This document shows, piece after piece, positions 1-61,863 of a DNA stretch of 64,000 bases. Source of the DNA: Buttiauxella sp. A111 (GTDB lineage: Bacteria; Pseudomonadota; Gammaproteobacteria; Enterobacterales; Enterobacteriaceae); contig NZ_BJFN01000007.1 in the NCBI RefSeq assembly GCF_014189855.1, positions 62,001 to 126,000 of the forward strand, written 5' to 3'. Below the pieces are notes generated by a model. It was not told the origin of the DNA, made no database searches, and worked only from the letters and a program-made list of their open reading frames with translations. The translations under genes and the position numbers were made by a program. The stretch's first letter is position 1; each line of letters opens with the position of its first letter.

Positions 1-342
1 TGCGGCCACTTCTTCAAAGGTTTCCGGGAATACGCCGTGGTGCTGGTTTGCCACCATTTGCGCAGCTTTGTGCAGGTTTCTGGCACGCGCGTAATAGCCA
101 AGGCCGGTCCACAAATGCAGAACTTCATCCAGTGGAGCGTTGGCAAGATCGGTTACCATTGGGAAGCGATCCATAAAGCGCTCAAAGTAAGGAATGACGG
201 TAGCAACTTGCGTTTGTTGCAACATCACCTCAGACAGCCATACTTTATAAGGCGTTTTTTCGAGTTGCCATGGCAGGGTTTTGCGCCCGTATTTTTGATA
301 CCAGTCAAGAACCTGGTTGGCGAATTGCGGCGCTTGTATCAT
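1..342 (-). CDS. mutY: Adenine DNA glycosylase MutY (N-terminal part, runs off window)
   Basis: MutY removes adenine mispaired with 8-oxoguanine or guanine in base-excision repair. The reverse strand reads an uninterrupted 114-codon N-terminus from an ATG at 342, beginning [10 protein letters not shown]. The stretch [11 protein letters not shown] carries the catalytic glutamate at residue 38, equivalent to E. coli Glu37. The helix-hairpin-helix, [4Fe-4S] and C-terminal domains lie outside the window. The gene is divergent from trmB with about 150 bp between them, as in E. coli, so the pair is conserved. Family identity is clear; completeness cannot be judged. Confidence 0.95.
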
Positions 343-494
343 TGTTGCCCAGCATCCGATAAATGTGTGATTTAGGGGGCTGATTCCAGCACAGACGGCT
401 CCGTGCTGTAAACCGGAACTTTCTGGTGCTTGCTTCTCATCATTAACTTTGGATAATGCCCGTTTCCCGAACACTAACTCAAAGCCTGAACACC

Positions 495-1214
495 ATGAAA
501 AATGACGTCATCTCACCGGAATTTAATGAAGAAGGCCGCGCAATGCGCCGGATTCGTAGTTTTGTGCGCCGCCAGGGCCGCCTGACTAAAGGTCAAGAGT
601 TCGCACTGGAAAACTATTGGCCGGTGATGGGCGTTGAATATGAAACCGCACCTGTTGATTTTGCAGCACTATTTGGTCGCGAAGCGCCAGTAACGCTGGA
701 AATTGGTTTTGGCATGGGGACGTCGCTTGTCGCAATGGCACAGGCAAATCCACAGCAGAATTTTTTGGGTATTGAAGTACACTCGCCAGGTGTCGGGGCT
801 TGTCTCGCGACAGCCCATGAAGAAGGCGTTGAGAACCTGCGTGTGATGTGTCACGACGCAGTAGAAGTGTTGCAAAAAATGATTCCTGACAATTCTTTAT
901 CTATGGTTCAGCTCTTTTTCCCTGATCCATGGCACAAAGCACGTCATAATAAACGCCGTATCGTTCAAGTGCCGTTTGCCGAGTTGGTGAAAAGCAAATT
1001 GAAACTGGGTGGTGTGTTCCATATGGCAACCGACTGGGAACCTTATGCGGAACACATGCTCGAAGTGATGTCCTCTATCGACGGTTATCAAAACCTGTCG
1101 CAGAGTAACGACTACGTACCGCGCCCGGATTCACGTCCGGTGACCAAATTTGAACAACGTGGCCATCGTCTTGGTCACGGCGTATGGGACTTAATGTTCG
1201 AGAGGATAAAGTAA
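495..1214 (+). CDS. trmB: tRNA (guanine46-N7)-methyltransferase TrmB
   Basis: TrmB uses S-adenosylmethionine to make m7G46 in the variable loop of tRNAs. The 239-residue length equals E. coli TrmB when the start is placed at the ATG giving [10 protein letters not shown]. The frame is open upstream to 456, but those 13 residues are not typical of the family. The SAM-binding glycine motif (LEIGFGMG, residues 69-75) and the [12 protein letters not shown] motif are present. The stop codon overlaps the yggL start (TAATG), which suggests translational coupling. Confidence 0.96.
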
Positions 1215-1540
1215 TGGCAAAAAATCGTAGCCGTCGTTTGCGTAAGAAAATGCACATCGACGAATTCCAGGAGTTGGGGTTCTCTGTTGCATGGCGTTTC
1301 CCGGAAGGCACCTCCGAAGAACAAATTGATAAAATCGTTGATGCATTTATTGACGATGTTATCGATAAAAATGGTCTGGCTTTTGATGGCGGCGGCCACC
1401 TCTCCTGGGAAGGCTTAATTTGTCTGCAGGAAATCGGTAAATGCACCGAGGAGCATCAGGCTCTGGTGCGCAAATGGCTCGAAGAACACAAAGCTGAAGA
1501 CATTCGCACCAGCGATCTGTTTGATGTTTGGTGGGATTGA
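1214..1540 (+). CDS. yggL: 50S ribosome-associated protein YggL (DUF469)
   Basis: This small protein of 108 residues is almost identical in layout to E. coli YggL, which has been reported to bind the 50S ribosomal subunit; its exact role is not settled. It has a basic N-terminus ([14 protein letters not shown]) and ends in FDVWWD, both family signatures. The start overlaps the last base of the trmB stop codon. The frame stays open upstream to 1184, inside trmB, but the coupled ATG fits the family length. An intrinsic terminator follows, so trmB-yggL is probably one transcript. Confidence 0.95.
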   Translation: MAKNRSRRLRKKMHIDEFQELGFSVAWRFPEGTSEEQIDKIVDAFIDDVIDKNGLAFDGGGHLSWEGLICLQEIGKCTEEHQALVRKWLEEHKAEDIRTSDLFDVWWD

Positions 1541-1582: not shown

Positions 1583-1594
1583 ATAGGAATGAAT

Positions 1595-2311
1595 ATGATT
1601 CGTAAGGCTCTGATGGGCGTCCTGCTGCTTACTGCGATGCAGGCGCAAGCCGACTATAAGTGCAGCGTCACGCCTCGCGATGACGTCGTGATCAGCCCGC
1701 AATCTGTTCAGGTTGTGGGTGAGAATGGCAATCTGGTTATTGCCCCGGATGGCAGCCTGCAATTTAACGGCAAGCCACATACTTTAAACGCAACGCAGCG
1801 CCAGTTGGCGGTGAGTTACCAGCAAGCGTTGCGCACTGACCTGCCGTGGATCAACAACGGTGCGCTGACTCGCGTGGAAAAAGGCCGTATTGCGCTGGAT
1901 AAAATCATCGCTCAGGAAGTCGGTGAGAGCAGCAATATGCGTGGCCGTCTGACTAAACTCGACGCGCAGCTTAAAGAGCAAATGAGCCGCATTATTGAAA
2001 CGCGTCAGGATGGCTTAACGTTCCACTATAAAGCGATTGATCAGGTTCGTGCCGATGGGCAACAACTGGTGAATCAGGCAATGGGTGGCATCTTGCAGGA
2101 CAGCATCAATGAAATGGGTGCTAAAGCCGTTCTGAAAGGTGGCGGTAATCCGTTACAAGGCGTGTTGGGTAGCCTCGGTGGGTTACAGACAGCTATCCAA
2201 AAAGAGTGGAAGAATCAGGAACAAGATTTCGAGCAGTTTGGCCGCGACGTATGCAGCAAAGTCGTGACGCTGGAAGGGCAGCGGAAAGGACTGGTTGAAA
2301 CATTAAAATAG
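1595..2311 (+). CDS. yggN: DUF2884 family envelope protein YggN
   Basis: The product has 238 residues and matches E. coli YggN (DUF2884), whose function is unknown. An N-terminal signal peptide (MIRKALMGVLLL, then cleavage near AQADYKC) indicates export to the periplasm. The middle is helical and charged, and the C-terminal third keeps the family stretch GQQLVNQAMGGIL. The ATG at 1595 is preferred because a GGA ribosome-binding sequence lies 7 nt upstream. An ATG at 1589 is the alternative, and the frame is open to 1544. The gene ends 3 bp before an ERIC element. Confidence 0.92.
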   Translation: MIRKALMGVLLLTAMQAQADYKCSVTPRDDVVISPQSVQVVGENGNLVIAPDGSLQFNGKPHTLNATQRQLAVSYQQALRTDLPWINNGALTRVEKGRIALDKIIAQEVGESSNMRGRLTKLDAQLKEQMSRIIETRQDGLTFHYKAIDQVRADGQQLVNQAMGGILQDSINEMGAKAVLKGGGNPLQGVLGSLGGLQTAIQKEWKNQEQDFEQFGRDVCSKVVTLEGQRKGLVETLK

Positions 2312-2313
2312 TT

Positions 2314-2434
2314 ACCCTTCATACTTCGAGCTGTGGGGGTGTTGGCTGCACTGGCTCACCCCAGTCACTTACTTTAGTAAGCTCCTGGGGATTCGTCAGT
2401 TTGCCGCCTACCCACAACTCGAATTATTTTGGGT
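2314..2434. repeat. ERIC element, copy 1
   Basis: This 121-bp imperfect palindrome begins ACCC and ends GGGT, with inverted termini rich in TTCGAG/CTCGAA. Its core contains the ERIC consensus (TCACCCCAGTCACTTACT ... AAGCTCCTGGGGATTC). It lies between the convergent genes yggN and leuD, exactly where gene order departs from E. coli. A second copy at 61743-61863 is in the opposite orientation. Confidence 0.95.
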
Positions 2435-2467
2435 ATAAACAGGCGAGTGGTATACCCGCCATACTAA

Positions 2468-3073
2468 TTAGCGCATAAACACCGGTTGTTTCTGCTCGTA
2501 AGCAGAAATTGAACCTTCGTGTTGCAGCGTCAAGCCGATGCTATCCAGCCCTTCCAACATGCAGTGGCGGCGGAAAGTATCGATGTTAAACGCGTAGTTT
2601 TTCTCACCCGCTTTCACCGTTTGCGCTTCCAGGTCGACAACGAACGTAATCCCCGGATTTGCCGCGACCAGTTTGAACAGTTCATCCACCTCTTCTTCGC
2701 TCAACGTCACCGGCAGCAGCTGGTTGTTGAATGAGTTGCCGTAGAAGATATCTGCAAAACTTGGTGCGATAACCACTTTAAAACCGTAATCGGTTAACGC
2801 CCACGGCGCGTGTTCGCGTGAAGATCCACAGCCAAAGTTTTCACGTGCCAGCAAAATAGAAGCACCTTTAAACTCCGGGAAGTTCAGGACAAATTCTGGA
2901 TTCGGCTTTTGGCCTGCATCGTCCAGAAAACGCCAGTCATTAAACAAATGTGCGCCAAAACCGGTGCGCGTCACCTTCTGCAAAAACTGCTTAGGGATGA
3001 TTGCGTCGGTATCAACGTTTGCGGCATCCAGCGGAACGACCAGGCCGGTATGTTGGATAAATTTCTCTGCCAT
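2468..3073 (-). CDS. leuD: 3-isopropylmalate dehydratase small subunit LeuD
   Basis: LeuD is the swivel-domain subunit that pairs with LeuC to isomerise 2-isopropylmalate to 3-isopropylmalate in leucine biosynthesis. It has 201 residues, the usual length. It keeps [11 protein letters not shown] near the N-terminus and [15 protein letters not shown], the substrate-binding segment of aconitase-type small subunits. It is the last gene of leuABCD, 11 bp after leuC. It converges on yggN across an ERIC element, whereas in E. coli its neighbour is the sgrR/setA side. Confidence 0.98.
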
Positions 3074-3084
3074 GGTGTTTTCCC

Positions 3085-4485
3085 TTATTTCAACGTGCGG
3101 ATGTCAGCAAAATGACCGGATACAGCAGCGGCAGCGGCCATTGCCGGGCTCACCAGATGTGTGCGTCCACCGCGGCCCTGACGGCCTTCAAAGTTACGGT
3201 TGCTGGTGGAGGCGCAACGCTCGCCTGGCTCCAGACGATCGTTGTTCATCGCAAGACACATAGAGCAGCCAGGCAAGCGCCATTCAAAACCCGCTTCGAT
3301 GAAAATCTTATCCAGGCCTTCAGCTTCAGCCTGCGCTTTCACCGGACCAGAGCCTGGAACGACTAATGCCTGCACGCCTGGTGCGACTTTACGACCTTTG
3401 GCGATTTCAGCCGCAGCACGCAAATCTTCAATACGTGAGTTAGTACACGAGCCGATAAATACTTTATCGATAGCCACTTCGGTCAGCGGGATCCCCGGTT
3501 TCAAACCCATGTACGCCAGCGCTTTTTCAGCAGACGCTCGTTCTACCGGGTCGGCGAAGGATTCAGGGTTCGGGATATTTTCAGTAACCGAAATGACCTG
3601 GCCTGGGTTTGTGCCCCAGGTGACTTGCGGTGCGATATCTGCGGCATCCAGGGTGACAACGGTATCAAATTTAGCACCTTCATCTGTGCTGAAGGTTTTC
3701 CAGTACGCAACCGCATCGTCCCAATCGGCAGCTTTCGGAGCGTGCAGACGCCCCTTCACATAGTTGAAGGTCGTGTCGTCTGGCGCAACGATACCGGCTT
3801 TAGCACCCATTTCGATTGCCATGTTGCACAACGTCATTCGTCCTTCCATCGACAGCGCCTGAATCGCGCTACCGCAGAATTCCACGACATGCCCGGTGCC
3901 GCCAGCGCTGCCGGTTTTGCCGATGATCGCCAACACAATATCTTTCGCCGTGATACCAGGTGCTGCATGGCCTGTGACTTCAATTTTCATGGTTTTGGCG
4001 CGGCCCTGCTTCAGGGTTTGCGTGGCCAGAACATGTTCAACTTCAGAAGTCCCGATACCAAACGCCAGTGCACCAAATGCGCCATGGGTTGCAGTGTGGG
4101 AATCGCCACAAACGATTGTCATGCCCGGCAAAGTTATGCCTTGCTCAGGGCCCATCACGTGGACGATCCCCTGGAATGGGTGGTTCAGGTCGTACAGCTC
4201 AACGCCGAATTCTTTGCAGTTTTTCATTAATTCCTGCATTTGAATGCGGGCCATCTCGCCGGAGGCGTTGATGTCTTTGGTCTGCGTAGAAACGTTGTGG
4301 TCCATAGTGGCAAATGTTTTGCCTGGCTGACGCACCGGGCGCTTATGCGCGCGCAGGCCATCGAATGCCTGCGGAGAGGTGACTTCATGCACCAGATGAC
4401 GGTCGATATACAGCAGAGGAGTTTCATCCACTGCTTCGTAGACGACATGGGCATCGTACAATTTCTGATATAACGTCTTCGCCAT
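3085..4485 (-). CDS. leuC: 3-isopropylmalate dehydratase large subunit LeuC
   Basis: LeuC carries the [4Fe-4S] cluster that catalyses isopropylmalate isomerisation with LeuD. It has 466 residues, identical in length to E. coli. Cluster-ligand cysteines are visible in IGSCTNSR and in [11 protein letters not shown]. The [23 protein letters not shown] stretch is typical of this family. The gene starts 2 bp after leuB ends, consistent with tight translational coupling in the leucine operon. Confidence 0.98.
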
Positions 4486-4487
4486 GA

Positions 4488-7152
<2,665 letters not shown>

Positions 7153-7190
7153 GTTGTGGTCCTTTCTTGTCTTGGGGGCCGTTGCTACGA

Positions 7191-7225
7191 GCAAAAAAAA
7201 ACCCGCGCAGTGGCGCGGGTTTTTT
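7191..7225 (-). terminator. leu operon attenuator terminator
   Basis: An 8-bp perfect GC-rich stem (7201-7208 with 7213-7220, loop of four) is followed on the minus strand by a run of nine U residues. It lies between leuL and leuA and is the terminator arm expected for leucine attenuation: rapid leader translation lets it form, and ribosome stalling at leucine codons prevents it. Confidence 0.93.
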
Positions 7226-61742: not shown

Positions 61743-61863
61743 ACCCAAAATAATTCGAGTTGCAGAAAGACGGCAAGTGAGTAAATCCCCAGGAGCTTAC
61801 ATAAGTAAGTGACTGGGGTGAGCGAACGCAGCCAACGCAGCTGCAGCTTGAAGTATGACGGGT
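61743..61863. repeat. ERIC element, copy 2
   Basis: This 121-bp imperfect palindrome begins ACCC and ends GGGT and contains the ERIC core ATCCCCAGGAGCTTAC ... AAGTAAGTGACTGGGGTGAGCG. It is in the opposite orientation to the copy at 2314-2434. It lies between convergent yacL and yacC, touching the yacC stop codon, at the position of speDE in E. coli. Confidence 0.96.

Follow-up and report, generated by a model that had tools for sequence, protein, structure and literature searches.

The yggN-leuD junction of Buttiauxella as a probable end of a symmetric inter-replichore inversion around oriC

Genes and repeats at the yggN-leuD junction

The window, a 64,000-nucleotide stretch of the Buttiauxella sp. 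A111 genome, opens with mutY on the minus strand, trmB-yggL-yggN on the plus strand and leuDCBA on the minus strand, and this order, read from the sequence and its open reading frames, confirmed the arrangement described around positions 2312-2467 by the first-pass annotation. The mutY gene is represented by its start (1..342, minus strand, end coordinate set by eye), with the remainder upstream of the window, and was assigned by sequence reading, by the E. coli gene order and by comparison with relatives. Next come trmB (456..1214, plus strand, taken as the longest open reading frame and matching E. coli), yggL (1214..1540, plus strand, in the orthologue order of E. coli) and yggN (1592..2311, plus strand, supported by its open reading frame and by the loci of relatives), which in our reading is the last gene of a flipped block on the window side. 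The unflipped side would begin with leuD (2468..3073, minus strand, identified by its open reading frame and a DNA match), followed by leuC, leuB and leuA (3085..7194, minus strand), which were assigned from open reading frames, leuC also by DNA match, in the same order as in relatives. Between the 3' ends of yggN and leuD lies a spacer of 156 bp (2312..2467), which we interpret as the outer breakpoint of an inversion, and the same join is found in nine other Buttiauxella assemblies. In E. coli K-12, yggN is located at 3.1009-3.1016 Mb with ansB, yggM and hemW as neighbours, and leuD at 78.85-79.45 kb with setA as neighbour; the positions of about 3.1 Mb and 0.08 Mb given for them in the first-pass annotation agreed with the mapped orthologues (3.10 Mb and 0.08 Mb).

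Most of the spacer is occupied by a TA-flanked imperfect palindrome (2313..2435, plus strand) with arms at 2313-2337 and 2411-2435, which, going by the consensus, we take to be an ERIC (IRU) element; the first-pass annotation had overlooked it. ERICs are TA-flanked imperfect palindromes of about 127 bp that occur in many copies, and TA flanks, an imperfect palindrome and many genomic copies were all found here. The whole yggN-leuD spacer folds better than shuffled sequences (z -5.5), and when 40 of the 188 first-look ERIC candidates in the Buttiauxella sp. A111 genome were scored, all 40 matched, the window copy included. Among the 39 other scored matches, the best is 97% identical and lies about 99 kb away, outside the window (C7:163733-163856), and the next best scored copies reach 90-91%; this pair possibly reflects recent ERIC movement or gene conversion. 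A second copy within the window is located at 61743-61863 on the minus strand (C7:123743-123863) and is 82% identical. The part of the ERIC/IRU literature available to us describes a small mobile unit of 127 bp, which the TA-flanked, multicopy palindrome of about 123 bp in this spacer resembles (PMC2759123). Downstream of the ERIC, a short inverted repeat read from the sequence (2442..2460) is a candidate terminator shared by the convergent yggN and leuD genes, and GC-rich hairpins resembling it were seen by eye in four other records (L054, L059, L060 and L066).

Reciprocal junction, symmetry and nested inversions

It had been predicted that, if the join arose by inversion, a reciprocal junction should place the ansB side of yggN next to the setA/sgrR side of leuD. 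The setA/sgrR side was indeed found in the same genome (37 contigs), where the setA-sgrR-thi block, running from setA to thiQ (C2:389901-396485), lies beside hemW (C2:388572-389709); the partner is thus hemW and not ansB, and E. coli DNA queries for ansB and yggM gave no match in the Buttiauxella sp. A111 genome. The ansB gene is also absent beside yggN in Dryocola, in Enterobacter R1(2018) and in L065. Ten further records named Buttiauxella were available, and nine of these (L054-L061 and L066) carry both the yggN/leuD and the setA/hemW junctions, so that the reciprocity expected of a symmetric inversion was observed in Buttiauxella sp. A111 and in nine other Buttiauxella records. The tenth, the metagenome-assembled genome L065, keeps yggN-hemW and setA-leuD and has neither inversion junction; it is likely misnamed, because the protein tree described below groups it with Dryocola and Enterobacter R1(2018). 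Two of the records, L054 and L061, are both titled B. agrestis ATCC 33320; their YggN proteins are 96% and 94% identical to the query, respectively, they carry a REP-like element and an ERIC, respectively, at yggN/leuD, and they occupy separate places in the tree. One of these labels is probably wrong (L054 is titled UNVERIFIED_ORG).

Comparisons with relatives further show which arrangement is derived. Across 80 YggN loci, yggN is followed by hemW, with or without ansB between them, in Dryocola, Cedecea, Kluyvera, Citrobacter, Salmonella, most Enterobacter and others, and in those outgroups that yielded both setA and leuD, the two are direct or close neighbours. In a midpoint-rooted tree of five concatenated proteins encoded in this same region (85 taxa, 1285 columns), Buttiauxella is monophyletic (10/10, support 1.0). 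Since the relatives retain intact yggN-hemW and setA-leuD neighbourhoods and Buttiauxella forms a single clade, the yggN-leuD state is derived and arose on the Buttiauxella stem. The ancestral arrangement, which the first-pass annotation had left undetermined, is therefore settled as yggN adjacent to hemW and setA adjacent to leuD.

The genome of the window is a draft, and symmetry was measured in one genome, G001, a record labelled B. agrestis DSM 4586 with a main contig of 5,141,063 bp. Its oriC lies near 1,009.5 kb, and the GC-skew minimum over the 1.6 Mb examined is at 1,010 kb. The hemW/setA junction at 231.8 kb and the yggN/leuD junction at 1,805.9 kb are located about 778 kb and about 796 kb from oriC, in agreement with the earlier proposal of ends at similar distances on opposite replichores, and they enclose 1,574 kb, or 31% of the main contig. 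With dif at 3,539.5 kb, the two arms measure about 2,530 and 2,611 kb if the contig represents the whole chromosome.

To follow the interior of the interval, landmarks and blocks of open reading frames from E. coli were mapped on G001:220001-1820000. The block from setA to nrdG on the left and the block from dolP to yggN on the right are flipped. The block from yraR to tldE, which contains oriC (E. coli 3.298 to 4.460 Mb, about 1.1 Mb), is represented by 15 mapped pieces, 13 of them in the E. coli orientation; the two flipped inner pieces correspond to E. coli positions of about 3.56 and 3.81 Mb, and the order of the pieces is disturbed near oriC. Within the left block, the part at 382.9-415.3 kb is an exception, its five hits being to E. 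coli 3218-3236 kb. The inner joins, nrdG/yraR at 454.9 kb and tldE/dolP between 1,572.1 and 1,589.1 kb, are again near-symmetric, with radii of about 555 kb and 563-580 kb. The landmark map thus rules out the proposed one-step inversion relative to E. coli, from which the inner oriC block differs little in orientation, and calls for a minimum of two near-symmetric inversions, one nested within the other. What stands of the proposal is the Buttiauxella-specific step: relative to the inferred immediate ancestor, the whole interval is flipped in G001 (outer blocks flipped, inner block mostly E. coli-oriented), and this step is one inversion.

The nrdG/yraR junction, scored as present when both parts lay less than 7 kb apart on one contig, was found in 10 of the 26 genomes tested; the remaining 16 have the parts far apart or on separate contigs. 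Its carriers are all four Buttiauxella genomes tested (including sp. A111), Dryocola, Enterobacter R1(2018), C. sulfonylureivorans, C. neteri, the metagenome-assembled L065 and Klebsiella BIGb0407; these ten fall within a clade of 20 taxa, whose other ten members (six Buttiauxella and four others) were outside the test set. Because the junction extends to Cedecea and Dryocola, the inner inversion is older than the Buttiauxella one and common to these genera. Moreover, G093, an assembly of four contigs with the same genus label as C. sulfonylureivorans, has hemW and setA in the E. coli orientation and oriC flipped, which is the predicted intermediate. In G099, a one-contig genome of the Cedecea clade that has the genus label of G216 (by contig place Enterobacter Ag1, L074), oriC is in the E. 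coli orientation though neither hemW nor setA is flipped. In Leclercia and E. hormaechei, which are without the inner junction, oriC is flipped. Small oriC-proximal flips are frequent, which makes the orientation of oriC alone a weak marker, and events are best counted by named junctions.

A repeat of about 124 bp is located exactly at nrdG/yraR in G001 (C1:454838-454961). It matches at 25 further places in that genome, some of them forming tandem arrays with a spacing of about 100 or 155 bp. It gave no match in Buttiauxella sp. A111, G005 or G009, and it is therefore probably a later arrival.

Origin of the two junctions

All these observations make it very probable that about 1.57 Mb around oriC was flipped by a symmetric inter-replichore inversion, that the yggN/leuD junction marks one of its ends, and that it became fixed a single time, on the Buttiauxella stem and after the older inner inversion. 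The ancestor would already have carried the inner inversion, which exchanged dolP/yraR and tldE/nrdG. Cuts would then have fallen at two near-mirror positions, between the convergent hemW and yggN genes and between the convergent setA and leuD genes, and the ends would have been rejoined as convergent yggN and leuD in the window and as convergent setA and hemW on contig C2 of Buttiauxella sp. A111. Such a second flip would have restored the E. coli orientation of the oriC region, leaving as the net difference an exchange of the outer blocks between the replichores. We infer that joining took place by repeat-independent end joining or by template switching between sister forks equidistant from oriC; alternatively, less symmetric products may have been removed by selection. 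The ERIC arrived at yggN/leuD later. The spacers have diverged too far for breakpoints to be placed at base level.

Symmetric inter-replichore inversions were reportedly described by Eisen et al. in 2000. The premise that they are a known mode of genome change was borne out by published cases, as far as the accessible parts of these sources go (Darling et al. 2008, PMC2483231; PMC12863080); like them, the Buttiauxella event has ends equidistant from oriC, one on each replichore, and replichore balance and gene polarity are therefore kept. It differs from the cases in those parts in being genus-wide, fixed and nested on an older inversion, and in having one end that is common to four lineages with different mirror partners. 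It also differs in its junction spacers: at about 250 bp or less in ten genomes, they could not accommodate an rRNA operon or an entire IS. In the portion of the Yersinia study available to us, symmetric inversions have endpoints that are more frequent near the origin and breakpoints that are typically in repeats (PMC2483231), and the accessible text of PMC12863080 likewise describes rearrangements concentrated near Ori. A further published rearrangement, from the part of PMC12795559 that was accessible, is an inversion of about 40 kb in Shigella sonnei lineage 3 that contains ansB-yggN-yggL-trmB-mutY and has IS630 on one side. As its genes are listed, ansB and yggN come close to one end, and an end of this inversion may share the interval studied here; unlike the Buttiauxella event, it is only about 40 kb, IS630-flanked and not around oriC. 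In the open-licence literature, no description was found of the Buttiauxella inversion or of reuse of hemW/yggN, and searches on Buttiauxella returned only a paper on flagella.

The most credible of the rivals is that short palindromic repeats (REP/BIME-like or CCCTCTCC-type hairpins) present in both spacers recombined, and we consider it unlikely. By eye, such repeats occur in the yggN-hemW spacers of Dryocola, Enterobacter R1(2018) and C. neteri, a similar one occurs in the setA-leuD spacer of C. sulfonylureivorans, and REP-like palindromes lie at 7 of the 10 Buttiauxella setA/hemW junctions. At yggN/leuD, however, a REP-like element is found in L054 only, and the spacers of L060 and L066 are short and without REP, so that a repeat common to both sites is not demonstrable; none was seen in the ten Buttiauxella genomes. 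Short palindromic repeats are common in convergent spacers, which makes their presence alone a weak argument.

An inversion by homologous recombination between ERIC copies lying in opposite orientation at the two sites was attractive at first, because Buttiauxella sp. A111 carries an ERIC at both junctions (at setA/hemW, C2:389727-389850) in the relative orientation that recombination requires. The spacers of other species spoke against it. The yggN/leuD spacer is without ERIC in 3 of the 10 Buttiauxella genomes, being short in B. warmboldiae (L060) and Buttiauxella B2 (L066) and carrying the REP-like element instead in L054, and the remaining seven spacers hold one of two ERICs that look different by eye. 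Between setA and hemW, an ERIC is present in Buttiauxella sp. A111 alone among the ten. The outgroup spacers examined, 11 between setA and leuD and 8 between yggN and hemW, showed none, and the same inverted repeat was thus not found at both ancestral sites. Given the three ERIC-free spacers and the lone ERIC at setA/hemW, we rejected an ERIC-driven inversion, which, unless ERICs can be lost by precise excision, we regard as highly improbable. The ERIC was inserted into yggN/leuD after the inversion and is secondary and incidental to it, not its cause, and the presence of ERICs at both junctions of Buttiauxella sp. A111 is a coincidence, though their orientation suits recombination.

Two unrelated transpositions or translocations, for which the existence of small oriC-proximal shuffles could be cited, are if anything still less credible in view of the exact reciprocity in 10 of 10 genomes, the flipped blocks on both sides and the nearly equal radii. 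Misassembly at 2312-2467 can be dismissed as an explanation, for although misjoins are usual at repeats and an ERIC sits at the junction, the join lies inside a contig of 201.7 kb and is common to nine other assemblies, two of which have a short spacer that contains neither ERIC nor REP.

Reuse of the hemW-yggN boundary

When flanking genes were mapped to E. coli, the ancestral hemW/yggN boundary proved to have served as an end of inversions in three or more other lineages as well. In Atlantibacter, the joins hemW/secA and yggN/mutT, reciprocal to each other, were both seen (E. coli 111.0 kb). A clade of Enterobacter ENT03, kpr-6, G104 and G221 has hemW/djlA and yggN/rluA (E. coli 58-60 kb), and since yggN is still followed by a yggM-type gene in ENT03 and kpr-6, the cut in these two lay between hemW and yggM. 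In G074, hemW/acnB and yggN/yacL were both seen (E. coli 134.3 kb), and the Buttiauxella partner corresponds to E. coli 78.8 kb. The four partners (E. coli 59, 79, 111 and 134 kb) thus belong to four groups separated by lineages with the intact order, and each of the three multi-member groups is monophyletic in the five-protein tree. By arithmetic on the E. coli map, hemW/yggN lies about 826 kb from oriC and the partners about 775, 795, 827 and 850 kb, and in G104, a single contig of 4,258,836 bp, the two junctions lie at radii of about 649 and 700 kb. We conclude that hemW/yggN has been used as an end by four phylogenetically separate inversions whose partner pairs are near mirror positions. 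Regions repeatedly used as inversion ends are also described in the accessible part of the Yersinia study (PMC2483231); compared with what is given there, the reuse found here is at one gene boundary, across genera and about 0.8 Mb from oriC.

Counts over the 80 loci, which were drawn by YggN similarity with up to 10 kb per side and in which detectable joins are those to the E. coli 14-142 kb region, place the boundary among its neighbours. The hemW/yggN order is intact in 57 loci, joined to the other replichore in 15 (three clades) and neither in 8, the last comprising contig ends, insertions, split blocks or same-replichore breaks. All 15 joins to E. coli 14-142 kb fall at hemW/yggN and none at 14 other boundaries, most of which are within operons and each of which is intact in 48-80 loci. 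At nupG/speC and speC/yqgA, where the order is kept in 55 and 48 of the 80 loci, no join to that region was seen. If 15 boundaries were equally likely, three clades would share one boundary with a chance of about 1 in 225; because most of these boundaries lie inside operons, a fairer comparison uses perhaps five to seven permissive gaps, which gives about 1 in 25 to 1 in 49. The fourth case, G074, came from a search aimed at hemW/yggN. We regard these figures as suggestive.

A search of 197 genomes of the family for yggN-hemW returned any match in at least 142 and both genes in at least 38 (Buttiauxella sp. A111 included) among the matches listed. Of these at least 38, the genes are adjacent (less than 10 kb) in 24 and apart in 12, and in 2 (G177 and G183) yggN is at a contig end; several of the 12 genomes are also among the loci named above, and the counts do not amount to a family-wide rate. 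In G134 and G126, hemW and yggN lie 64 and 94 kb apart, respectively, on one contig; judged by contig place, G126 is the genome that holds L110, which with L101 makes up the two Franconibacter-type loci. The control boundary rpoD/mug gave one continuous match in at least 39 of the 197 genomes.

The hemW/yggN order is also broken in Franconibacter and relatives and in Shimwellia/Entomohabitans (L101, L216, L217, L218, L072 and L075). The block that follows yggN in Shimwellia and Entomohabitans corresponds to E. coli 3.047-3.057 Mb, which is on the same replichore, and these breaks were rejected as inter-replichore events. In Shimwellia the hemW side carries a plsC-type gene. Franconibacter (L216) has ftsP-, parC-, parE- and cpdA-type genes on the hemW side, its relatives also have hemW beside ftsP/parC/parE-type genes, and these breaks were likewise not counted. 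We take all five of these gene types to lie near 3.16 Mb in E. coli, and the breaks in all these groups seem to stay on one replichore.

Several further observations were made at these loci. In Atlantibacter (L067, L068 and L070), mutT, parted from secA, lies on the same strand as yggN and begins 16-17 bp behind it, and yggN-mutT is a possible new operon. L067, titled 'Citrobacter freundii M-21', groups with Atlantibacter and is likely misnamed. In L212-L214 (G022, Enterobacter ENT03), thiQ is followed by genes matching E. coli 3.045-3.090 Mb (cmtA, cmtB, tktA and others), a further join between the replichores.

We tentatively consider that hemW/yggN might be a fragile site, at which breaks are joined without repeats to the nearest intergenic gap at the mirror position, a reading to which we give less than even weight. 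If true, the sister fork, being equally far from oriC, and not homology would decide the partner, and the four lineages would provide a naturally occurring series of fork-coupled inversions in which one end stays the same.

As a rare genomic change, the inversion itself is a marker of the genus Buttiauxella, and it provides a polarised example of enterobacterial chromosomes rearranging by nested near-symmetric inversions, in which a comparison with E. coli alone miscounts the events. The kind of event is known and ordinary. What merits pursuit is that one end has been used repeatedly, as the reuse of hemW/yggN with a floating mirror partner serves as a natural experiment on replication-fork mechanics versus selection for balanced replichores.
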